The notes: generated from the sequence alone by a model not told the origin. Shown: positions 3,548 to 62,172, numbered from the stretch's first letter. The stretch: 64,000 nucleotides of DNA from a virus (IMGVR_UViG_3300045747_000454:1-64000); one strand, 5' to 3'. Made by a program: numbers and translations.

Positions 3548-4216
3548 CTAGATAATTCTGAACCCTTTATAAAATTCGCCTTTGGCGGAGGTGTGTTTTA
3601 GCGACGCAAGTGTAATGCCATTTTCACGACACCACGGAGTAATGCTGTAATGAGTAACTTGGTGCCCTAACAAATCCTCAACTATCCAAACTTTGGCTCT
3701 TGAGTTTTTAGACCCAGCGCTCTTCCCAGGTTGTGCCTTGAGTTTTATCCCTTTACGGTCTTTGTTCGATTGAACCATTCGTTGCTTATGTTCTTCAGAA
3801 TGCATTCCGCCGTACTGCACCCCATTGGCTCTGGCTAATGCTTGACCCGCTAAAAAGTTTGCGTAGTGTGAAGGAGACATCTTTCGACCCTTCCAAAATT
3901 CCGAAACCGTCGCAGCCCATTCTGTGCGTAATGCTTCAAATTGACGTGCAGTAAGTTTCCCGCCTATAACATGTCGCATTGTCCATAGTGCTTTACACAT
4001 CTTCTTTCTTGCAGACCCAGAGGTCATCTTCATAAGCAGATGATGTGCAACAAAATGTTGCTTTGCTGTGAGACGAACAAGGTTGTCCTTGGCGTTGGTC
4101 CCACCTAAAGATTTAGGGATGATGTGATGACGCTCAGAATAGCCTACAACTACTTGAACCTTCGCAGCGTTGATAAGACGCCAATAGCAATCTGAATACT
4201 TGTTGTGGATGAACAT
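3548..4216 (-). CDS. HNH homing endonuclease
   Basis: A 222-residue protein with an HNH core: RHHIIPKSLGGTN, then DNLVRLTAKQHFVAHHLL, at about residues 28-65. It is followed by a helix-rich region, a HSEEHKQRM segment like the NUMOD DNA-binding modules, and a C-terminal helix-turn-helix-like end (WCRENGITLASL). Such enzymes nick or cut a specific site so that their gene copies into cognate phages. It runs opposite to the surrounding genes and its base composition is visibly more AT-rich. Its ribosome-binding site (AGGAG, minus strand, 4227-4223) and a late-promoter motif (4245-4238) both lie inside the start of the plus-strand gene at 4218. It is related to the gene at 13441-14235. Confidence 0.88.
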   Translation of the reverse strand: MFIHNKYSDCYWRLINAAKVQVVVGYSERHHIIPKSLGGTNAKDNLVRLTAKQHFVAHHLLMKMTSGSARKKMCKALWTMRHVIGGKLTARQFEALRTEWAATVSEFWKGRKMSPSHYANFLAGQALARANGVQYGGMHSEEHKQRMVQSNKDRKGIKLKAQPGKSAGSKNSRAKVWIVEDLLGHQVTHYSITPWCRENGITLASLKHTSAKGEFYKGFRII

Positions 4217-13440: not shown

Positions 13441-14235
13441 TTAGATGATGTCGGTGCATGATAGCACTGACCAGCCCTTTGATGCGCCACGCGACACAGG
13501 TGTTGTGTCGCGCGTTGTTGCCTTGTTTCGAAGCGCATAGTACGACAGCTCGTGCTCAATGCAGAAGTCATTGCACGCCGATGTCAGGTGCAACTTGCCA
13601 GACGGCGATTGCAGCGACCAAGTCTTAGACATACCATTCTTAGCCCCGCGACGTTGTCGTGCTGCTTCACGATGACTTTCTGGTATGCCGCGTGCCCAGC
13701 GCTCTTGTGCGCGTTGACGCATGTTCTCGCGATGCTCGACAGAAAATACTCGGTCTTTCTGACTTTCGCTGCGCAATGCACGAAGCTCTGGTGTGTACGA
13801 TGCGGCAATGGCATTAGACAGATTTTGTCTAGCTTCATCTGTGATTGGCGCACGGTTTCGCTGAGACACAGACATCTTCGCGCGAGTTTCGTCCGTATGC
13901 CCGCGTGGGATATTCTTCACGAAGATTTCGTATAGGTGCCCATTCGGTGTGTGGCGTGGCATTGTCTTAGTGCCACGACGCATCGAGTGGAATGCGAAGT
14001 GCATCTTTCTCTTCGCATCGCCGTCCAACATCTTCGTCAACAGCAAATGGGCAATGAAGTGTTCGCGCGGCGTAAAGAGAACGAGGTTGACCTTCGTGTT
14101 TTTGCCACCAAGACACTTTGGGTGGATGTGGTGTGCTTCATAGTATTCGTCGCCCTTCGTACGAGGCAGCTCTTGCCTCGACCCCGTCAGCTCAAAATAC
14201 CAACGAGCGTATTTGTTGACCTTAGGTTCAAACAT
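13441..14235 (-). CDS. HNH homing endonuclease
   Basis: A 264-residue HNH protein. The core is EAHHIHPKCLGGKN, then VNLVLFTPREHFIAHLLL, at about residues 34-70. Repeated helical modules like NUMOD3 follow (HTDETRAKMSVSQRNR and SVEHRENMRQRAQERW). It is a paralogue of the gene at 3548-4216 and also runs opposite to its neighbours. GGAG (minus strand) lies 6 bases before the ATG, and a perfect TATAAATA late promoter lies 25 bases before it. It sits between genes of unknown function rather than inside one. Confidence 0.88.
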   Translation of the reverse strand: MFEPKVNKYARWYFELTGSRQELPRTKGDEYYEAHHIHPKCLGGKNTKVNLVLFTPREHFIAHLLLTKMLDGDAKRKMHFAFHSMRRGTKTMPRHTPNGHLYEIFVKNIPRGHTDETRAKMSVSQRNRAPITDEARQNLSNAIAASYTPELRALRSESQKDRVFSVEHRENMRQRAQERWARGIPESHREAARQRRGAKNGMSKTWSLQSPSGKLHLTSACNDFCIEHELSYYALRNKATTRDTTPVSRGASKGWSVLSCTDII

Positions 14236-18820: not shown

Positions 18821-21151
18821 ATGGCAGCAGACTACAAGCATCTTGAGGACCTTGATCCGAAGTCGTTCATCGATACGGTTCGTCGATTGGGGCAGCTACA
18901 AGTTTCGGAGAAGCTTGACGGCTCAGTCTTCTGGTTTGGTCTCGACGAAGCCGGCAACTTCTACACCAGTCGCCCGAACGCTCACGCTGAGCGCTTTCAC
19001 AGCGAAGCCGACTACCCGAACGTGCTGTCAAACAACTCGCTGCGCTCGGCTCACGCTGCACTTGAGGTGAAGCTTGGTGTCATCAAGGCTGCCCTACTGC
19101 CAGGCGATGCCATCGTGGCTGAAGCCATCTTCGGCAAGCAGGAGAAGACTGCTGTGTACGGTGCCGATGGCATTCACTACATCGCCATTCTCGACAGCGC
19201 TGAAGGAACGAATGAGCTCAAGGTCTCCAAGATCATCGCCGATTTTGCCAACACCGAGGTTGAAGCTCGCTCAATGACGGTCGAGTCGTCAGACGGAACG
19301 AACATCGACCGCAAGCTTGAGATGCACAAGTTTCGCTTCGTCACTGAGCCGCCGATTCACTCGTCAAAGCTCAAGGGCGTCAACGTCAACAGCGCTCTGA
19401 AGAAGCTTGAGCTGTGGCTTGACAACGTCTCAGGCGTCGATCGTCTGACAAACCTTGATCTGCTCACTGCAGACATGTCGTCAATCCCAGCCGAGCAGCG
19501 CGACGCAGCAAAGTCTGAGCGCAAGCGCGTGACAGCAGAGCTCAAGTCGAAGTTTCAACTGCCGATCAAGCGCGAGTTGCTCAGTGGTCTCGTCTCCAAG
19601 CTGAAGCCAACGCACGGTCCAACCAATCCCTTTCCGAATGAGGACAACGGCGTTGCTGGCGTCAACATCAAGGACCCAACGACTGGCGGGACCTACAAGC
19701 TCGTTGACACTGACGGCTTTGGCACCATCAAGGCGTTCAACAACGCTGTGATCGACACGATCTCTGGTTCTGTTCGCACTACCGATGATGAAGCCCCGCT
19801 CGAACAGCGCGGTGGCGTTGTTGGTCTGCTGCGCATTCAGATTGCCAAGCTTCTCGGCAATCAAGACCTTGCCATCAATCGCGAAGCTCGCAAGATCTTC
19901 GCTGGCGCCAAGGGTTCGCACGCCACTGAGACGCTGCGCAGCGTTGCAGCTACACTGCGTGCTGATGACTACCTCGGCACGCAGCGCAAGATCGAAGCGC
20001 TTGGGCAGCACGCGCTCGTCGAGCTTGACGCGCTGCTGACAAATTTCAAGAAGCATCAGCGCAAGTACACGCTGAAGCTGAAGACCGGACGCACTATTGG
20101 TCTGAGCCCAGAGGTCATCAAGCGCACCTATGGTGCCTTCGCTGAAGCGAAGAGCGAGGTGGCAGAGCTCATCGTTAACGTTAACAAGGCCGACAGCCTC
20201 ATCAAGCTTGTTGGCGTGCTGTATGGCAAGGATGCTGTGGCAGCGCACGCCACCAAGAACACTGAGCTGCACGAGGGTCTGCTGTCTGAGCGGCGCGTGC
20301 AAGTTGACATCTCTCACACGATTGAAGTCCCAGACTTCTGGACGCTGATGAACGTCTACTTCGCTACTGTGCTGGCGTCAGTTGTTATCTACAAGGCGCA
20401 GGACAACAATGGGGTGCTGCGCTTTGTTCGAGACCAAGCTCACCATCGTTTGAACCGACTCGAGCCGGGCATGAGCGCGCTGAACTACTGGGGCTACCTC
20501 GTTTGGAAGTCGAACACACCACGTGCGGTGCAAATCCTCGGCAAGAAGCTCGCCGCCGAAATGTCGCGTATCGCTCGCAAGGTCCCAGAGCAGCACGTTC
20601 GCTTTCTACACATGGAGCTGTCGTTCGGCAAGATGCTGAAGATCAACTGGGACGACCATCTGGCGACCATGATCTTCCTTCAGAAGCGCACTCCGTCGTT
20701 GAATACCGAGCGCATAAATAACCTCATCGAGGATGCGTTTCGCTACGACACCATGACGTTCGATGAGAAGGTCAAGTTTCTGCCGCGCATCTACTTCTAC
20801 GTTCAGCAGTTCGTCCCGATGTCGCCGCTTCAACCAAGACTGCGCATCATTCAGGACACGCTGCTTCAATTCGGAGACACGGCAAACACGCCGACCACTA
20901 TCGTAATGGCACCAAATCAAAAGCTACTCGGCGAGGATGGAGAGATTGCCGCAGGACCAGACTCAGGCCCAGCCGCGACGCCAACGACTGGGGCGACCAG
21001 CACGAACTCTGGCAGCATCTCAAACGTTCAAGGACGTGCCGGCAGGCACCCAAACATCGAGAAGCGAACACGCAAGGGTAAGCCACTCGGAAGAGACGGA
21101 CAGCCGCTTGGCGTGATGTTCCGTCGCCCACCACCAGGAGGAGTGAAATGA
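18821..21151 (+). CDS. Large late protein with ligase-like nucleotidyltransferase N-terminus
   Basis: A 776-residue protein with no close recognised relative. Residues 29-35 read SEKLDGS, the KxDG lysine motif (K31, D33, G34) of covalent nucleotidyltransferases such as DNA and RNA ligases. FYTSR and AEAIFGKQE follow at positions where those enzymes have motifs Ia and III. A clear motif V is not seen, so activity is uncertain. The remainder is mostly helical, and the last 90 residues are Gly/Thr/Pro-rich and then basic. It has a late promoter and no visible Shine-Dalgarno, and it overlaps the next gene by 4 bases. Late timing suggests a virion-associated or assembly-stage protein rather than a replication ligase. 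Confidence 0.6.
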   Translation: MAADYKHLEDLDPKSFIDTVRRLGQLQVSEKLDGSVFWFGLDEAGNFYTSRPNAHAERFHSEADYPNVLSNNSLRSAHAALEVKLGVIKAALLPGDAIVAEAIFGKQEKTAVYGADGIHYIAILDSAEGTNELKVSKIIADFANTEVEARSMTVESSDGTNIDRKLEMHKFRFVTEPPIHSSKLKGVNVNSALKKLELWLDNVSGVDRLTNLDLLTADMSSIPAEQRDAAKSERKRVTAELKSKFQLPIKRELLSGLVSKLKPTHGPTNPFPNEDNGVAGVNIKDPTTGGTYKLVDTDGFGTIKAFNNAVIDTISGSVRTTDDEAPLEQRGGVVGLLRIQIAKLLGNQDLAINREARKIFAGAKGSHATETLRSVAATLRADDYLGTQRKIEALGQHALVELDALLTNFKKHQRKYTLKLKTGRTIGLSPEVIKRTYGAFAEAKSEVAELIVNVNKADSLIKLVGVLYGKDAVAAHATKNTELHEGLLSERRVQVDISHTIEVPDFWTLMNVYFATVLASVVIYKAQDNNGVLRFVRDQAHHRLNRLEPGMSALNYWGYLVWKSNTPRAVQILGKKLAAEMSRIARKVPEQHVRFLHMELSFGKMLKINWDDHLATMIFLQKRTPSLNTERINNLIEDAFRYDTMTFDEKVKFLPRIYFYVQQFVPMSPLQPRLRIIQDTLLQFGDTANTPTTIVMAPNQKLLGEDGEIAAGPDSGPAATPTTGATSTNSGSISNVQGRAGRHPNIEKRTRKGKPLGRDGQPLGVMFRRPPPGGVK
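20713..20720 (+). promoter_or_regulatory. Possible internal late promoter (CATAAATA)
   Basis: CATAAATA inside the 776-residue gene, about 430 bases before the next start. It matches the motif but lies in coding sequence and may be coincidental. Confidence 0.25.
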
Positions 21152-21936
21152 TGTCACTACTGAAAGAGGTATCTGGCATCCCAGTGTACTCTCAACCAAA
21201 GGCCACAACTGGCACGCAAGATCTGAGTCAGAAGACCGATGCGTCTGACATTGGCTTCTCGACGATGCGCAACACAATCAACACCGACGGCAACATCAGC
21301 GGCTCTGATGTGGCATCGTATCTCGATCGTGCGGCTGAGCTGAACGACGAGGTCGACACGGTTCCATTCGGCCTTGAGACGAGCGACAATGAGATCGTCA
21401 AGGTCTACGTCAACGCTGAGCAAGCCGACGCCTTTGAAGACAAGATGAAGCAGCTGCTCGGCGCCGAGAAGGACATTGAAGAAGCGCTCAATGAGCTGGC
21501 AATGGACTTCGACATCGTTGATGTCGTGTGGCCAGAGGACAAGACCGAAGCCGCAGAGAACGAGGCGCCGATTGGCGACCCAAGCCACGACGACTTTGAT
21601 GACCTTGACAACGACGGCGAGATGGACACCATCGCCGAGTACGATGACCTGACCGAAAGCCTGGACCCAGACGCCGTCGTGTCGACTGAAGCAACCGAAG
21701 CCGAGCGGGCCACGTGGTCGCGCCTTGAGGCCGTCGTTGGTCAGCTTCACGCGCTTGGCACGGGTGGCGTTCGCGTCGTGACTGGATTGACTGAGGGCAA
21801 GTTCACCAAGACTGAGCTCATTCGAAAGTACATTGCTGAGAAGTACGCAGCCGACTGCGCAACTGCCATAAGCGTGTTGAAGCGTGCGGGTGTATCCCGT
21901 GAAGACTATCCATACTGGCTTGCTGAGCAAGCCTAA
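21148..21936 (+). CDS. Acidic late protein with capsid-targeting-like N-terminus
   Basis: A 262-residue unrecognised acidic protein. AGGAGG at 21136-21141 serves ATG 21148 or the adjacent ATG 21151. The N-terminus MMSLLKEV contains L-K-E, matching the (L/I)xE cleavage signature of T4 prohead protease and resembling the gene at 22787. The middle is very rich in Asp and Glu (DDFDDLDNDGEMDT). The C-terminal 70 residues are helical and could be a winged helix or adaptor. It lies in the plus-strand late block. An internal-head or scaffold role is inferred. Confidence 0.65.
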   Translation: MMSLLKEVSGIPVYSQPKATTGTQDLSQKTDASDIGFSTMRNTINTDGNISGSDVASYLDRAAELNDEVDTVPFGLETSDNEIVKVYVNAEQADAFEDKMKQLLGAEKDIEEALNELAMDFDIVDVVWPEDKTEAAENEAPIGDPSHDDFDDLDNDGEMDTIAEYDDLTESLDPDAVVSTEATEAERATWSRLEAVVGQLHALGTGGVRVVTGLTEGKFTKTELIRKYIAEKYAADCATAISVLKRAGVSREDYPYWLAEQA

Positions 21937-21950
21937 CTGAAGGAGACACC

Positions 21951-22787
21951 ATGTCACTTGGACAACAATTCCTGGCTCGCCTCAACGAAGCCAAGGCCCC
22001 AGCCCCGGTCAAGAAGAAGGCATTCACCTTCGACCCAGCTGTCGAGACGATGAAGCGCGGTATGCGCGACATCGGCGGTGAGAGCGATCTCGCCGACAAG
22101 ATTGCTGAGGTCATGTCGCTGTGCGGCATTCCTGGCATCTATCTGAACAAGCAGGACATCAAGGTCAGCGTGGTCGAGGCGGCTCAACAGCTGCGCACCA
22201 AGTCGGCTCGTGTTCGCTCGTTCTTGTCGCTGCACTCTGCGCTCTGTGCTTTCTATGGTGTCGAGGCTCTGGTGAAGGAAGCCAAGGCCGAGGTCGCTGA
22301 GTTCAGCGACGAAGAGCTCGAAGGCAGTCAGTTTCAGAAGATGGTCGAGGAAATCCTCGTGCTGCTCGGCGCTCCACGCGAGCTCGTGACTGGCGAAGCC
22401 AAGGCTCCCGTCAAGTCAAGCATGAAGCGCGCCATTGCCAAGCTTCGTCAAGATGAGAACGTTCGTATGGCAGTGCTCACGCTGGCTCGCTACGCTGGCA
22501 TCAAGATGAACGACGGCGTTGCTGGTGAGAAGAAGGTCGGCGGTCCGAAGAAGGTCGCGATGGAAGATGTTGCCGCACCGGCTGCTGCCCCAGCCGCTCC
22601 AAACATGTCCAACCTCTGGTTGTCTGCTGACAGCATCTTCAAGCATCTCGGTCTGAACCTGCAAGACGAAAAGCTGGTCCGCGTCGTCAACATGCCAGGT
22701 CTGATTCGCGCTGTCAAGGCCGCTTCGCGCAATCCGCAGACGAAGGCCGCAATGATCGCGTTTCTGAACAAGACCAAGGCTGAGTGA
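21951..22787 (+). CDS. Helical late protein with capsid-targeting-like N-terminus
   Basis: A 278-residue unrecognised protein, helical and rich in Ala and Lys, starting behind AGGAG. Its N-terminus MSLGQQFLARLNEA includes L-N-E at residues 11-13, the T4 prohead protease signature. It has an Ala/Pro linker (PAAAPAAPNM) at about residue 215. Neighbours on both sides have similar N-termini, which suggests a family of capsid-internal proteins. The gene overlaps the next by one base (TGATG). Confidence 0.65.
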   Translation: MSLGQQFLARLNEAKAPAPVKKKAFTFDPAVETMKRGMRDIGGESDLADKIAEVMSLCGIPGIYLNKQDIKVSVVEAAQQLRTKSARVRSFLSLHSALCAFYGVEALVKEAKAEVAEFSDEELEGSQFQKMVEEILVLLGAPRELVTGEAKAPVKSSMKRAIAKLRQDENVRMAVLTLARYAGIKMNDGVAGEKKVGGPKKVAMEDVAAPAAAPAAPNMSNLWLSADSIFKHLGLNLQDEKLVRVVNMPGLIRAVKAASRNPQTKAAMIAFLNKTKAE

Positions 22788-23476
22788 TGTCGCTGCTGCT
22801 TGAGGTTGCTAAGGTCGCTGAAGACGAACCGCTCACTCCAACGGGTGGGTGGAGCGTTGGCGACCTCGCGAACCTCGGCATGATGCTGTCGAGCGATGAC
22901 TTTTCGTTTCGCCTCGACTCGCACAATCTTAACGTTCTCTTCGACCTTGCTGAGAATGCTGAGGACGGTGAGGTTCGTACGACGAAGGGCGACATTCTCG
23001 AGGTGTCGACCCGCGAGAACGACATCGTCATTCGTCTTCAGGACGACGACACGTTTCCGAATGGGTTGCTGATCCCATTGAAGACGCTGAAGGATATGGG
23101 CATCGATCAGTATGAGGAAGATGATGGCGAATCAGTCGAGCAACCTGCTTCTGAGTTCGAGGACCTCAATGCCGATGATACTATAGTCGCTGAGGACTAT
23201 GTCAATCTTGACGAAGGTATCAAGAAAGCCTTTCGTCGCAGCGGTAGCAAGATCAAGCGTGGCTTTCGAGTCACGAGCGGGTTCCGTAAGGGACGCGTTG
23301 TTGCATCGGCTAAGGCTGCCTTTCGACCACGCGCTAAGGCTTCAACTCGCATGAAGCTGAAGATTGCTGGACGCAAGAAGAAGATCATTCGAATCATGAA
23401 GGGCAAGCGGACCCGCCGCCGCCCAATGTCTAAGCGACTCGTTCGCATGAACAAAACTCTCAGCCACCGCAAATGA
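22787..23476 (+). CDS. Late protein with acidic middle and highly basic C-terminus
   Basis: A 229-residue protein starting at ATG 22787 (TGATG with the previous stop; GTG 22784 is an alternative). The N-terminus MSLLLEV holds L-L-E. An acidic central stretch (QYEEDDGESVEQ) is followed by about 75 very basic residues, including AGRKKKIIRIMKGKRTRRR. That tail looks made to bind DNA or RNA, like basic internal head proteins. Its stop overlaps the next start by 4 bases. No named family is recognised. Confidence 0.65.
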   Translation: MSLLLEVAKVAEDEPLTPTGGWSVGDLANLGMMLSSDDFSFRLDSHNLNVLFDLAENAEDGEVRTTKGDILEVSTRENDIVIRLQDDDTFPNGLLIPLKTLKDMGIDQYEEDDGESVEQPASEFEDLNADDTIVAEDYVNLDEGIKKAFRRSGSKIKRGFRVTSGFRKGRVVASAKAAFRPRAKASTRMKLKIAGRKKKIIRIMKGKRTRRRPMSKRLVRMNKTLSHRK

Positions 23477-24153
23477 CCACCTTCACCTACCCCGAGCTAA
23501 CGACATCAAACGAACTCGGGTACAGGTGGTATCACACGAAGGGCGGCGCCTACCCGAGCATCACGACGGTGCTGGGCGCAACCAAGTCGCCTGAAGCTGC
23601 GGCTGCGCTGGAGAACTGGCGCAACTCAATGGGACACGAGGCGGCTGACGCCTTCTCCAAGGCTGCGACAGATCACGGCACGATGGTTCACTTGCTCGCA
23701 GAGCGTGGCTTCAATGGCGAGGATCCCTACGCCCCAGTGAACGGTGAGCCGGTGCCACAGAAGGCGATTGGCGCCTATCGTGCGCTGTCAACCAAGCTGA
23801 AGAAGGTTACTGCCGTCTACGGACAGGAGATGTCGCTCTACTCGACAGCGCTTGAGGTTGCTGGGCGCTGCGACCTGGCTGGCGAGTACAAGAGCGCTCC
23901 AGCCATCATCGACTTCAAGACGTCTGGGCGTGTCAAGGGCTACGAGAACATCGAGGACTATCCTCTTCAGCTCGCCTTCTACGCCATCGCGCACAACGAG
24001 CTGTTCGGCACCAACATCAACCGTGGCATCATTCTGATGACGGTTGGCGAGGGCTTCCCGATGGAGTTCAGCTACAACCTTGACGAGTACTACGAGCCGC
24101 TCGCAAAGCGCGTAGAACAGTTCTACCAGATGTTGATAAATAGAACCTACTGA
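23473..24153 (+). CDS. PD-(D/E)XK exonuclease (RecB/MGME1-like)
   Basis: A 226-residue protein. The core reads YPSITTVLGAT, HGTMVHLLAERG, VAGRCDLAGEY, AIIDFKTS and YPLQLAFYAIAHNE. These are the RecB-type motifs: a helix histidine, GxxD, the (D/E)xK strand, and Q-x3-Y. Such enzymes degrade single-stranded or duplex ends and occur in phage recombination and in mitochondria (MGME1). It lies in the late block rather than with the replication genes, so a role in DNA ejection, superinfection or end processing at packaging is possible. A late promoter overlaps its end. Confidence 0.85.
   Translation: MTTFTYPELTTSNELGYRWYHTKGGAYPSITTVLGATKSPEAAAALENWRNSMGHEAADAFSKAATDHGTMVHLLAERGFNGEDPYAPVNGEPVPQKAIGAYRALSTKLKKVTAVYGQEMSLYSTALEVAGRCDLAGEYKSAPAIIDFKTSGRVKGYENIEDYPLQLAFYAIAHNELFGTNINRGIILMTVGEGFPMEFSYNLDEYYEPLAKRVEQFYQMLINRTY
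24135..24142 (+). promoter_or_regulatory. T4-type late promoter (GATAAATA)
   Basis: GATAAATA in the last codons of the nuclease gene, 37 bases before ATG 24172. GAGGT at 24162-24166 follows as ribosome-binding site. Confidence 0.75.
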
Positions 24154-24171
24154 CAACAGTCGAGGTCATTC

Positions 24172-24633
24172 ATGGCAGATGTAAACGAATTTCAATTGGG
24201 GCTTGACACGAGCGCGCTTGCTAGCACGTCCGCACAGTCCGCACAGTCCGCACAGGTCTACTCAGGTGGCAACTCAGTCGTGGTCGGCGACCCAGTTGAC
24301 TATCCGCCGCCAGCCACTGAGGTGCCGAAGCGCACCATCAGCGTGTACGCCAACTCCATCAACGCCGTGTCGTACGACGTCAGCGGTGAGGTGGCGTGCT
24401 TTGACATCGTGTTCTCCGTCGGCATCATGGATTCAGACGGTTCGGCGTGCAAGACCTATCAAGTCGTCAAGCGCATCGGCATCGACAAGGAAAAGATTGC
24501 TGGTGAGGTCAAGGACTCCTCACCGGTCACGGTCGTCGAGGCATCAAAGCCTGAGCCGAAGAAGGTTATCAACGAGGGACGTTCGAAGCCATCAGAGCTC
24601 GAGCGCTTCCGCCGCATTGCAGGACTGGGGTAA
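24172..24633 (+). CDS. Hypothetical late protein with SAQ repeat
   Basis: A 153-residue unrecognised protein. The N-terminal 35 residues are low-complexity and include SAQSAQSAQ, encoded by a threefold 9-base repeat at 24229-24255. A beta-rich domain follows (RTISVYANSINAVSYDVS). The C-terminus (RSKPSELERFRRIAGLG) resembles tails of T4-like virion proteins. It has its own late promoter. Confidence 0.65.
   Translation: MADVNEFQLGLDTSALASTSAQSAQSAQVYSGGNSVVVGDPVDYPPPATEVPKRTISVYANSINAVSYDVSGEVACFDIVFSVGIMDSDGSACKTYQVVKRIGIDKEKIAGEVKDSSPVTVVEASKPEPKKVINEGRSKPSELERFRRIAGLG
24229..24255 (+). repeat. Tandem 9-base repeat, three copies
   Basis: TCCGCACAG occurs three times without interruption and encodes Ser-Ala-Gln three times. 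The perfect copies suggest recent expansion and possible length variation between related phages. Confidence 0.9.
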
Positions 24634-24636
24634 GCC

Positions 24637-25185
24637 ATGGGAAAGATTGTTGTTCTCGCATCCAATGAGGATGCTGAAGCCGTGAAGACGGCGCTCGACG
24701 GAGCCGGCGTCGACTACGAGGTCGTTGAGCCGACGCCGTCGAACATCCTTCACATCGTCATCGGTATGGTCGACGACGGTGAAGAGGAGCCAACTGATGA
24801 GGAACCGAAGGCCGAAGAGCCGAAGGAACCGAAGGCGCCAAAGGAGAAGAAGGAGCCACGCACCGATGACGCTGCGCCACCGCCTGAAGAGGAAGAGCTG
24901 CCAGTCGAGGAATCGCTTGGCACGGTCACCGTCGAAGGCGAGGTAATTCCGGCGATTCGTGGCACCGCCGACACCAGCGTGCTCTACGTTCACTTCGAAG
25001 AGCTAGGTCCGCGCACGACCTACAAGCTGAACGAAAGCGTCTGCAGCTTCTGGCCAAACGATCTCACGACGCCAATGTCCCGCATGTTGATCACCACCGA
25101 GCGTGGTGGGTCGATGTTTGAAGTGCTGGTGCGAGAAGGCGAAACGCGTCTCGTCGTCGGCAAGGATCTGGCTGCACTCTTCTGA
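24637..25185 (+). CDS. Hypothetical late protein with charged linker
   Basis: A 182-residue unrecognised protein with three parts: a small alpha/beta N-terminal domain (GKIVVLASNEDAEAVKTAL), a linker at about residues 50-90 made of Glu, Lys and Pro, and a C-terminal beta-rich domain (about 100-182). It starts 4 bases after the previous stop in the same transcript. No catalytic motif is visible. Confidence 0.65.
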   Translation: MGKIVVLASNEDAEAVKTALDGAGVDYEVVEPTPSNILHIVIGMVDDGEEEPTDEEPKAEEPKEPKAPKEKKEPRTDDAAPPPEEEELPVEESLGTVTVEGEVIPAIRGTADTSVLYVHFEELGPRTTYKLNESVCSFWPNDLTTPMSRMLITTERGGSMFEVLVREGETRLVVGKDLAALF

Positions 25186-25190
25186 ACCAA

Positions 25191-25850
25191 ATGACACATA
25201 TCAAATCACCGTTCATTGTCGTTGATGACTTCATCTCGCCGGCAAGCTGCGAACGCATCATCAAAGAGTATGGCATCACCGTCCCGTCCGTTGAGACGCT
25301 GGACGATGAGACCACTCGACCGCTGAAGCACTCGCGCATTCTACGCGACGGTGAATTCATGCTACTGCTCAAGGCAGCGGTGCAAGAACATCTTCAGACT
25401 ATACAAGAGCGCTACGGCGCCGACGTTGCTGGCATGGAGCCACCGGTCTTCTCACAGTACTTCGAGGATCAGAAGAATCCGTGCGAGCTGCACGGGTGCG
25501 AGAACGCGAAGTACGTGCGCAAGAAGTGGCTCAAGGTCAAGGACGTCGACCTCGTCGGCTACATCTGGCTGAAGGACTACAACAACGGCGTGCCGCTCGA
25601 CCCAAGCTACGAGGTCTACGGTGGCAAGCTCGAGTTTCCGGCCTTCAACTTCAGTCTCATTCCGCAGCGTGGAATGCTCGTGCTGTTTCCAGCCGGTCCG
25701 CACTTCATCACGGCAATCTCGCCAGTGATGCTCGGTACGCTTGAGCAGATCAAGATCACCATCAAGCTGCGCGTTGGCGAGGACGGCCTGTGGTTCTATC
25801 AACCAGCTGACTTTCCAGGTACGTATCAAGAATGGTTCGCCGAAGAATGA
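25191..25850 (+). CDS. 2OG-Fe(II) oxygenase-like protein, atypical metal motif
   Basis: A 219-residue protein with the double-stranded beta-helix layout of prolyl-hydroxylase-type oxygenases: a KLEFPAFNFSLIPQRGMLVLF strand pair, then PAGPHFITAISPV with H171 as distal iron ligand. The proximal HxD motif is not standard; the best candidate is H101-G-C-E104, so the aspartate is missing or replaced by glutamate at a shifted position. T4-like phages often carry such genes near structural clusters, with unknown targets. It overlaps the kinase-like gene by 4 bases. It may be active with an altered motif or may be a binding domain only. Confidence 0.7.
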   Translation: MTHIKSPFIVVDDFISPASCERIIKEYGITVPSVETLDDETTRPLKHSRILRDGEFMLLLKAAVQEHLQTIQERYGADVAGMEPPVFSQYFEDQKNPCELHGCENAKYVRKKWLKVKDVDLVGYIWLKDYNNGVPLDPSYEVYGGKLEFPAFNFSLIPQRGMLVLFPAGPHFITAISPVMLGTLEQIKITIKLRVGEDGLWFYQPADFPGTYQEWFAEE

Positions 25851-26494
25851 AAGTTCAAGAGCTGCTCGCCGAGGAATCCCTTCACGACTACCTGATTCGG
25901 TTGGTCGACAAGGAGGGCATCACGAAGCTTGGTGGCGGCGCCTTCTCGCAGGTCTTTCAGCATCCGCAGTTCCACAACGTTGTGACGAAGGTCTACACGG
26001 CGAAGGACAAGAAGTACGCAGCGTACGCGGCGTGGTGTCAGGCGAATCAGAGCAATCCGTACGTCCCGCAGATCATCGAGCAGCTGCCGTTCACGCACGG
26101 CAAGCAGAAGTACATCATCCTCTTCATGGAGAAGATGACGCCAATCAAAGACGAGAGCCAGCTCTTTCGCGCTTGGGTTCGAGCGCTGAAGCTGCCGAAG
26201 GACGGTCCAGACAACGAAGAGATTCTAGATCACTTCTCGAACTACGTTGAGGACGATGACTCTGGCGAGCTCGCCAAGGGGTTGAAGCTTGCCTTCGGTC
26301 TTGGTTATGGTGACACGAACCTCGTCAAGATCTGGACTCACATTCTGACCTATGGGGTCAAGAACATTGACCTTCACAGTGGCAACGTGATGCTGCGCAA
26401 CAAGCAGCTCGTGTTCACCGACCCAGTCGCTGGAACTCCAGACTACAAGAACTGGATCGGCAAGATCTCTTCAAAGCCTGAAGAGGATCAGTAG
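25847..26494 (+). CDS. Protein-kinase-like protein with capsid-targeting-like N-terminus
   Basis: A 215-residue protein. I use ATG 25847 (ATGA overlap) rather than 25832. The kinase-fold signature is present in order: glycine-rich loop LGGGAFSQVF (29-37), VVTKVY with K48, a hinge YIILFMEKM, a catalytic loop NIDLHSGNVML (D175, N180) and VFTDPV (D192). The fold is shorter than a full eukaryotic-type kinase, nearer to small phage or aminoglycoside-kinase-type enzymes. The N-terminus MKVQELLAE closely resembles the T4 capsid-targeting peptide, ending in L-A-E. It ends tail-to-tail with the minus-strand structural genes. Packaging in the head and injection is inferred, not shown. Confidence 0.72.
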   Translation: MKVQELLAEESLHDYLIRLVDKEGITKLGGGAFSQVFQHPQFHNVVTKVYTAKDKKYAAYAAWCQANQSNPYVPQIIEQLPFTHGKQKYIILFMEKMTPIKDESQLFRAWVRALKLPKDGPDNEEILDHFSNYVEDDDSGELAKGLKLAFGLGYGDTNLVKIWTHILTYGVKNIDLHSGNVMLRNKQLVFTDPVAGTPDYKNWIGKISSKPEEDQ

Positions 26495-27468
26495 GGTTGC
26501 CACGCTCCAGCGATAGCTGAATCGCCTACCCACTCGTAGATGGTGTTGTGCTCAGAGAGCCCACCGTCCTGCATCTCTCCATAGCTGACGTGAACGAGCG
26601 CTCGACAAGGTCCGGTGCGCTCTTTGTTCGGTGTGTCCGGTAGACCATCGCCGTTCTTGAGGCGAGTTGCCACGAAGGCGGTCAGCACTGAGTCGTCCAC
26701 CTTATCGTCCTGCTTGTCGTTCAGCTCGCCACGCGCAGGGGCGATGCCATTCCCAGATTCAGGTGTTGATGGCAGAGCTGTCCGTGGGATCATCTCCACC
26801 CAAGGGTCGTTATCATTGATTTGCGTTCGCAGGTCGTCGATGTCCCAGCCAACCGAGGTTGTTGTGGTGCCAGTTCCGCTGCCACTTGCGTCGGCGACGG
26901 GCGTCACCGTTTTGCTCAAAAGCGGATACATTCGAAAGCGCTGCTGAACGGAAATGACGTCAGGCGCAGCGAAATCCGCAGCACTTTTCGTGGTCTTAAG
27001 GGAGATCTCTCCCGGCACAAAAAACAAGCGGCCTGGCGTGAATGGCGAAGTAGTTGGCGTCGGCAGCGTGTATGGCTGCCCGATCCTCATCAAATTCCTT
27101 ATTTGCCAACTAATGCTATATTTCTGTGCGGATGGTGTGGGCGTTGTCAGCCCCTCAAATTGCCAGAGGTCCTGCGCTGTCCCAGACAGCTCGAACACGT
27201 CGAGAGCAGCCCCAACAACGTTCTCTGCTTCCTTGAGGTTGTGATTGGTGACGATGCAGTAGGCTTCGGCATCAACGGCTCCGGCTGGGTGAATCTCGAC
27301 AACCTCGATGGTGATGTTGTTGCCAGCCACGCCAGGATCGCGAGCGCGAAAGTAGGTTCCTCCAATCCAAAGGCGCGCCCGCCGACTAGAGCAGGTTCGG
27401 AGCTGAACTCGGGTCGTGAATAGGTTCGGCGGCTTGAAACCGTAGGTTGGGACGACGATGTTCTTCAT
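26488..27468 (-). CDS. Putative virion structural protein
   Basis: A 326-residue beta-rich protein. The segment RARDPGVAGNNITIEVVE at about residue 42 resembles a short motif seen in tail-sheath-type proteins (PGxxGNxIxVEV), but the whole is too short to be a sheath. The middle is Thr/Ser/Gly-rich. It overlaps the PAAR gene upstream by 4 bases and lies at the end of its transcript, suggesting a tail-tip or baseplate accessory role. Its end overlaps the convergent kinase-like gene by 7 bases. Confidence 0.65.
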   Translation of the reverse strand: MKNIVVPTYGFKPPNLFTTRVQLRTCSSRRARLWIGGTYFRARDPGVAGNNITIEVVEIHPAGAVDAEAYCIVTNHNLKEAENVVGAALDVFELSGTAQDLWQFEGLTTPTPSAQKYSISWQIRNLMRIGQPYTLPTPTTSPFTPGRLFFVPGEISLKTTKSAADFAAPDVISVQQRFRMYPLLSKTVTPVADASGSGTGTTTTSVGWDIDDLRTQINDNDPWVEMIPRTALPSTPESGNGIAPARGELNDKQDDKVDDSVLTAFVATRLKNGDGLPDTPNKERTGPCRALVHVSYGEMQDGGLSEHNTIYEWVGDSAIAGAWQPY

Positions 27469-27791
27469 GGGCTGTCGAAGCTGACGCCACCCTCGGCTGA
27501 TGGCGTCGTGTCAGGCAGAACGATACCATCATGCCAGGCGGAGCCGCAGTTGTGAATGCGAATCTTCGTCTTGCCACGAATGGCGGCTGGTCGCCCATTG
27601 ACGAAGACGGTGACCTCCTTGGACACCACGAAGTACGTCGGCGGATAGCAGCCGTGCCCAGTGGTCTGCGGCAGATCATCAGTGGCGGCGCCGCCTACCG
27701 GCATGCCGTTGATGAAGACGTCCGACGACCCAGTCGCTACGTGATCACCACACGAGATTGGGTCGCCGATTCTTGCTACGTTGCCTGCCAT
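27465..27791 (-). CDS. PAAR-domain tail spike tip protein
   Basis: A 108-residue PAAR protein: ARIGDPISCGDHVATGSSDV, FINGMPVGG, GHGCYP, VFVNGRPAAIRGKTKI and HNCGSAW. The Cys and His residues would bind the metal at the point of the cone. PAAR proteins cap the central spike (gp5-like, encoded at 56553) and pierce the outer membrane. AGGAGG precedes the start, and a late-promoter variant lies 32 bases before the ATG. It is separated from the other baseplate genes by about 25 kb. Confidence 0.92.
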   Translation of the reverse strand: MAGNVARIGDPISCGDHVATGSSDVFINGMPVGGAATDDLPQTTGHGCYPPTYFVVSKEVTVFVNGRPAAIRGKTKIRIHNCGSAWHDGIVLPDTTPSAEGGVSFDSP

Positions 27792-61383: not shown

Positions 61384-62172
61384 TTACTTCTTCGCCTTCG
61401 CAGCCTTAGCAGCCGCCTTCGCTGCTTCCTTTGCATCAAGCGCAGCCTGCTTTGCAGCCGCCTTCTCAGCAGCCGCTGCAGCCTTGGCGTCAGCCTCCGC
61501 CTTCTCGGCTGCAGCTGCTGTCGCCAGCGATGCAGCTACCTTCTTGAAGATGATGTCAGACAGCGATTGCTTGACGCCGAGAATCTTGGCGAACGCAACC
61601 TTGTAACCCATCTTCACGGCGAGACGCGCCATCGAACCTGAGATCATGTGAACTGGAATGTCCTCGCCCTTTTCGGCGATGGCGAGAATCTCCTCAGACG
61701 GAGTTCCCTCGTCATCTGGGTCGCTGCGCTCCTCAAGCCCTGGCATCACGACGTGCTCGAGCTTCTCGCCGTTCGGACCGGTGAAGTACTTGTCAAGCAG
61801 CTCGATGTACTTGGACGCCCGGTCTGAACCTGCGGCGATGGCGTAGGGTTCGTAGCCGGCCTTCCGAACCTCCTCGAAGGCAGCCATGGCCGACGGGGCG
61901 GTGATGATCTTGACGCCGTTGGCTCGGCCGGAGGCCGTCATGAACTTGATGCGATCCTCAGCGCTCAGCGGGTTCTTGCTCAGATCCTTTGAGGTTTCGG
62001 CGCCGGCAACGACCACGACGATCGGCACCACGCCCTTGTGCTCACGCTCGAACTTCTTCATTCGGTCGATGACTGTGTAGTGTCCGGCGGTTGGCGGGTT
62101 GAAGCGACCAACGGCGACGACGGCTCGAGTCTTCTGCTGCCCAACCGTGTCCTCAAAAAGGTCTTGATCCAT
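61384..62172 (-). CDS. Cytidylyltransferase-like nucleotidyltransferase (NadM/NMNAT type)
   Basis: A 262-residue protein starting at the ATG at 62172, behind GGAG; a longer frame to 62205 overlaps the late promoter and is rejected. VAVGRFNPPTAGHYTVIDRM contains the HxGH-type site (TAGH), and HMISGSMARL is the ISSTxxR-type site. IAAGSDRASKYIELLDKY resembles nicotinamide-nucleotide adenylyltransferases. The last 50 residues are an Ala/Lys/Glu-rich helix (AAAEKAAAKQAALDAKEAAK). It heads the baseplate transcript, an unusual place for a metabolic enzyme, so it may be a virion component. Confidence 0.82.
   Translation of the reverse strand: MDQDLFEDTVGQQKTRAVVAVGRFNPPTAGHYTVIDRMKKFEREHKGVVPIVVVVAGAETSKDLSKNPLSAEDRIKFMTASGRANGVKIITAPSAMAAFEEVRKAGYEPYAIAAGSDRASKYIELLDKYFTGPNGEKLEHVVMPGLEERSDPDDEGTPSEEILAIAEKGEDIPVHMISGSMARLAVKMGYKVAFAKILGVKQSLSDIIFKKVAASLATAAAAEKAEADAKAAAAAEKAAAKQAALDAKEAAKAAAKAAKAKK

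Follow-up and report, generated by a model that had tools for sequence, protein, structure and literature searches.

A 64,000-nucleotide stretch of viral DNA (IMGVR_UViG_3300045747_000454:1-64000, hereafter the window) contains a block of plus-strand genes, four of which encode products that start with a short peptide ending in (L/I)xE. Do these peptides direct the proteins into the capsid and, if so, might the proteins then be delivered to the host? Bacteriophage T4 uses a short N-terminal peptide to load Alt and three internal proteins. All four open reading frames (ORFs) listed in a preliminary description of the window are present, with the N-termini given there, namely MMSLLKE (21148), MSLGQQFLARLNE (21951), MSLLLE (22787) and MKVQELLAE (25847). 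Our analysis makes it likely that proteins tagged in this manner are recruited to the prohead core and processed by a protease within the head, and delivery of some of them as cargo into the host is perhaps a further step.

The window comprises bases 1-64,000 of a record of 116,033 bases, the remainder of which was also examined (coordinates beginning L002, L003 or L004 refer to pieces of the record beyond the window). The same record encodes a prohead protease of the gp21 family (Peptidase_S77, E=6e-24) as well as the major capsid protein, which belongs to the gp23 family (Gp23, E=4e-86). Judged by the capsid protein, the closest of the named phages are Stenotrophomonas RAS14/CM1 and Xanthomonas XacN1 (45% identity), followed by PA5oct and the 121Q group. 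Records of 250-370 kb are found among the uncultivated relatives, which makes it probable that the present one is part of the genome of a giant myovirus related to T4.

Counted loosely, as (L/I/F)xE no more than about 13 residues from the start, the motif is found at 22 of 121 called starts and at 54 of 572 internal methionines (9.4%), an approximately 2-fold enrichment (p=0.01). An excess of only this size is what might be expected if these were ordinary late or early genes whose LxE starts arose by chance or through a shared habit of translation initiation. We also used a tight pattern modelled on the T4 peptides (hydrophobic-x-x-hydrophobic-hydrophobic-x-E right after the start), deriving the expected count from internal start codons and calling starts without a Shine-Dalgarno filter, since filtered calling overlooked coupled starts. 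The tight pattern occurs at 19 N-termini in the whole record against 1.7 expected (11-fold) and at 25 against 1.8 expected in the relative record G021 (349,660 bases); within the window it is present only at 25847. In XacN1, the region around the capsid genes has just two isolated matches. An 11-fold excess of the tight form at N-termini, the conservation of the peptide at the protein level in genome-specific variants ending in phi-x-E (phi, hydrophobic), and the preservation of the 21951 element within fused ORFs (both described below) together make an origin by chance or initiation habit highly improbable.

Beyond the window, the T4-type peptide opens the products of two tandem arrays of diverging paralogues, one of seven genes (record 88,600-93,125; L003:9601-14126) and one of eight paralogues together with one Zeta-toxin/AAA-like gene (record 105,550-112,948; L004:7551-14949). 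Nearly all the paralogues begin MKLxDLFE, MITFKQFLxE or similar, and proteins unrelated to them open with the same peptide, among them one that resembles an amidoligase (93,907) and a Zeta-like ATPase (109,053). Of 38 relative records, 11 contain homologues of one array and 10 of the other; the tag is kept in most cases, as it is in most of the 75 array homologues. Tags from one genome resemble each other more than they resemble those of other genomes, with variants such as MITFKQ, MRFKD and M(R/K)WxQL that end in phi-x-E. The T4 record provided controls: IPII and IPIII begin MKTYQEFIAE/A, IPI MKTFKEF, Alt MELITELFDE/D and gp24 MAKINELLRE/S (a slash here and below marks the cut position, predicted for the present proteins). 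The N-termini of 25847 and of the arrays fit this IP/Alt/gp24 form, in agreement with the likeness to the T4 peptide that had been pointed out for MKVQELLAE, while those of 21148, 21951 and 22787 have different, yet conserved, forms.

Structure predictions for two array proteins have high confidence apart from the tag, which forms a low-confidence first block, and neither model found a fold match in the PDB. In a viral fold library the matches of the second array family are restricted to giant-phage relatives, Atu_ph07 among those named, and drop sharply after rank 30. One array protein, A4, has a nearly invariant R49 in a strand, an STS-like strand followed by a helix, and an invariant E251, a resemblance to the R-S-E arrangement in pattern only. 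The arrays were considered as ADP-ribosyltransferases on this R...STS...E resemblance and the assignment was not adopted, the sequence, fold and Alt comparisons being negative.

The single T4-type peptide of the window belongs to the gene at 25847..26494 (plus strand), the product of which had been described as kinase-like and does match phrog_15752, the T7-type (gp0.7-like) protein kinase family, with E=2e-20. It begins MKVQELLAE/ESL, and its ATG overlaps the stop codon of the upstream gene. Divergent relatives retain a peptide of the same type (MKIFELIQE/E, MRVQELLTE/E and MRFKQFIAE/E, compared with MKVQELLAE/E here). Across 11 sequences the first nine residues are 51% identical against 29% for the body of the protein, so that the peptide is indeed conserved apart from the rest, a comparison that the preliminary description had called for; the glycine loop, Lys, DxHxGN and DP motifs are kept in most of these sequences. 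In four relatives some 8 kb separate the kinase gene from the capsid gene upstream of it. More distant kinase homologues begin MxxxEL(x)GIKKF/Y (F or Y last), from which the cut-site Glu is absent. On these sequence features the kinase looks like the best effector candidate in the window and the only effector-like product among the four. T7 gp0.7 is made early after infection, from the phage genome. The window kinase shares with it the family match and the kinase motifs; its capsid tag, however, suggests delivery with the virion instead, in which case a T7-type host-takeover kinase might arrive ready-made rather than being expressed after infection.

The other three genes differ from the kinase in the form of their start peptides, and as they lack the tight pattern, their tags were validated by retention in homologues. 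The product of 21148..21936 (plus strand) is an acidic protein (21 K+R, 57 D+E) with the tag M(M)SLLKE; in relatives it is matched by the N-terminal portion of a larger protein. Its homologues start with MKLLSE, MSLLKE, MNLLKE, MKTSLLKE, MKLIQE and so on, followed by a variable linker; among the fifteen homologues listed an LL- or LI-type start peptide is nearly universal, and phi-x-E falls within 14 residues in most. The next gene (21951..22787, plus strand) encodes a protein with the N-terminus MSLGQQFLARLNE, a predicted cut, and then AKA. It stands as a gene of its own here, in G011 and in L210, whereas other relatives have it within a fused ORF; in many of them 21148 and 21951 are joined in one ORF of about 470-1000 residues, and these fused ORFs hold the 21951 element internally at the matching point (MTIGSKFLARVLQE/A). 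In nearly all of the ten relatives compared the tag reads M(S/T)(I/L)GxxFLxR(V)LxE followed by A or G, at a gene start or in the interior of a fused ORF. Because the element is kept whether terminal or internal, a protease-site or targeting role is favoured, an internal start also being possible.

The third gene (22787..23476, plus strand) encodes what appears to be a precursor, comprising the tag MSLLLE, an acidic domain and a basic tail with a candidate protease site, NLDE/GIK, at the boundary. Residues 1-143 contain 8 K+R and 37 D+E, whereas the 86 residues from 144 to 229 contain 35 K+R and no D+E, which accounts for the highly basic tail that had been noted. In 19 sequences (the window protein and 18 homologues) E143, which closes the acidic domain before the tail, is invariant; the boundary reads phi-x-E/(G/A)(I/V)(K/R) in nearly all, with a hydrophobic residue at the phi position again in nearly all, and the tails have 16-37 basic and 0-5 acidic residues. 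An LLxE start is found in 12 of the 18 sequences with a complete N-terminus. A comparison with gp68, the basic core protein of T4, gave an hhalign probability of 0.1%, which does not support homology to it. Direct homologues of the trio were not found in named phages, and 22787 had no match among genome contigs searched with a view to host assignment.

In relatives, the counterparts of the trio are portions of a single larger conserved protein or operon. From the composition and conservation of these sequences, we read the three as prohead-core precursors more than effectors, of which 22787 would yield a protamine-like basic peptide. The same features could be taken further, to the proposal that all of the N-terminal peptides serve only the assembly of structural head-core proteins, which remain in the head or are cleared from it, with no delivery to the host. 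The conserved trio would suit such a role, with 21148 and 21951 one protein in relatives and 22787 an acidic/basic precursor; in T4 the core proteins are cut to fragments that leave the capsid (PMC5694885). However, a kinase, an amidoligase, a Zeta-like ATPase and diversifying arrays, all with the same tag, are implausible as scaffold parts, and we regard a purely structural role for the whole set as rather unlikely. Of the original proposal of four capsid-targeted and possibly injected proteins, capsid targeting and cutting by the prohead protease have good support, strongest in the case of the kinase and of the genes outside the window; a possible effector role within the window is narrowed to the kinase, the trio appearing core-like.

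A cut after phi-x-E is consistent with the capsid protein itself. In the N-terminal region of about 40 capsid-protein relatives, [LM]xE/(T/N) is conserved at one position with a variable middle residue. Such a pattern is what the substrate rule of the gp21 protease lineage would lead one to expect and, by analogy with T4, we infer that it is the actual cut site.

A further terminal motif may serve as a second tag. The extreme C-terminus of the scaffold (L002:17329-18216) is R-x-LAG(I/L) in most of the capsid relatives examined. The same motif opens small genes situated between those of the protease and the scaffold, in most cases with phi-x-E after it, as in MEHSRLLHLAGVPLTE/A; in the present record these N-termini are at L002:16289-16558 and L002:16577-16873 and, like the scaffold C-terminus, lie near a phi-x-E. 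Within the window the motif is found in the product of 24172..24633 (plus strand), which has in common with the scaffold a C-terminal R-x-LAG(I/L), arranged as VVE, a predicted cut, ASKPEPKKVINE, a second predicted cut and GRSKPSELERFRRIAGLG. Most homologues of 24172 retain (I/V)VE ... RFRxLAGL at the C-terminus. In 338,720 residues, from sequences many of which are related, the LAG motif was counted 66 times at C-termini, 34 times at N-termini and 56 times internally. The regions examined of XacN1 (around the capsid genes) and of T4 have no comparable LAG motif.

A link to virions is provided by the cultured Agrobacterium phage Atu_ph07, in which gp53-gp62 form homologous arrays (about 25% identity) with N-termini M(R/K)WxQL(T/N)E. 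Our gene numbers were matched to the published ones by way of gp4, gp5, gp18 and gp70. The published account reports 131 virion proteins by mass spectrometry (MS) and a virion cluster, CDS 31-76, with 29 of 46 products detected (PMC6102473); on those boundaries gp53-gp62 fall inside the cluster. The likeness consists of homologous arrays with tags in an MS-defined virion cluster, and the difference is that the parts of that account consulted here, in which the products of the cluster are presented as structural and of unknown function, leave the tags unmentioned (PMC6102473). Packaging is likely, as judged from the tags, the protease and this cluster. The N-terminal helix might instead bind another partner, such as a replication or membrane complex, a role for which a short hydrophobic element would be suited; such a partner is improbable, given how closely the peptide resembles the capsid-targeting sequences of T4 and the phi-x-E site that goes with the co-encoded protease lineage, and given the place of the Atu_ph07 homologues in the virion cluster as delimited in that account.

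Several observations weigh against capsid loading of all these proteins. The LxE start, enriched as it is, is weak when taken alone. The cut-site Glu is not strictly kept across the 21148 homologues, and the 22787 tag is absent from a more distant clade. The preliminary description had named homologues without the peptide as a refutation; the survey of homologues favours the capsid-targeting idea in the case of 21148, 21951 and 25847, and for 22787 the outcome is mixed on account of that clade. Array proteins have no match to ADP-ribosyltransferases by Pfam, PDB-sequence or PDB-fold search, nor to T4 Alt. With ten array genes in the Atu_ph07 cluster, the 29 of 46 products detected do not force the detection of any array protein.

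The presence and conservation of the tags, their sharing by non-homologous proteins, the co-encoded protease and the conserved capsid-protein site are direct observations, and on these we base the proposed cleavage and the roles of the tags. Recruitment to the prohead core would then be brought about by short terminal tags on the proteins of the block, the two arrays and other genes, and the gp21-family protease would cut after phi-x-E, freeing the mature proteins inside the head. A first type of tag, the T4-type N-terminal peptide of the window kinase, the array paralogues, the amidoligase and the Zeta-like ATPase, would mark probable cargo to the host. A second type (M-x-LL-x-E or FLxRVLxE), on 21148, 21951 and 22787, would belong to prohead-core precursors, and the second, invariant site in 22787 would release a highly basic, DNA-binding tail. 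The third type would be R-x-LAG(I/L) at the C-termini of the scaffold and of 24172 and at the N-termini of small core genes. We place about even confidence in the wider proposal that a T4-related giant-phage lineage uses modular, removable terminal tags to load dozens of proteins for host delivery, including a gp0.7-like kinase and two expanded families of unknown enzymes, with the same protease producing a protamine-like basic peptide.

The nearest known counterparts are the internal proteins IPI-IPIII of T4, which share an N-terminal peptide of about 10 residues, very similar in sequence and ending in phi-x-E (MKTYQEFIAE in T4; MITFKQFLAE and MKVQELLAE here). As in T4, the genome encodes a gp21-family protease and the tag is carried by unrelated proteins; in contrast to T4, at least 19 tagged genes are found in a 116-kb fragment, with tandem arrays, a kinase and other enzymes, and the second and third types of tag. 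Alt resembles the arrays in its peptide (MELITELFDE and MKLxDLFE) and in the idea of a packaged host-modifying enzyme, but the array proteins lack sequence similarity to Alt and their enzymatic class is putative. SPN3US and phiKZ-type phages likewise process head cargo with a prohead protease (PMC5694885), although several of their propeptides exceed 100 residues compared with 6-14 residues here. In the limited open-access literature, capsid targeting in jumbo phages was met only in papers on SPN3US, and the novelty claimed is provisional to that extent. The tag provides a sequence rule predicting which giant-phage proteins sit inside the head, most of them otherwise unannotated. With at least 19 tagged genes in one genome fragment, recurring in related giant phages that include a cultured one with published virion MS, it is probable that this phage packages a far larger number of proteins than T4 does, and perhaps injects them too.

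Two genes adjoining the trio are untagged. The first (18821..21151, plus strand) encodes a 776-residue protein with a ligase-like KLDGS near its start and a 39% identical homologue in G021; the second (23473..24153, plus strand) encodes a PD-(D/E)XK exonuclease (phrog_298, E=1e-49). By eye, gp66 and gp35 of the Atu_ph07 virion cluster resemble, respectively, the start of the 18821..21151 product and the exonuclease, of which gp35 appears to be the counterpart. The array family and the Zeta-like ATPase are both matched by PHROG 12810 (788 residues), and gp53 of Atu_ph07 (778 residues; L196:1485-3821) appears to be a fusion of the two with a single tag.

A further tagged protein is possible at 61384..62172 (minus strand), where a cytidylyltransferase-like product (phrog_3041, E=4e-16) begins MDQDLFE/DTVG; its homologues begin MEEFIFE/ATVG and ..FLFE/GTAG, giving a conserved (L/I)FE/xT(V/A)G start. 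Just downstream of the capsid gene region, at record 80382-80842 (L003:1383-1843), are two small adjacent genes, at least one of which has an acyl-carrier-protein-like DSL motif (GFDSLDS). Inspection by eye also revealed probable homing endonucleases, HNH-like at window positions 3548-4216 and 13441-14235 (minus strand) and GIY-YIG-like outside the window at L003:632-1249 and L003:6882-7697, one of the latter right after the capsid gene. Similarly, the product of 27465-27791 (minus strand) has the look of a PAAR-type tail spike tip protein.

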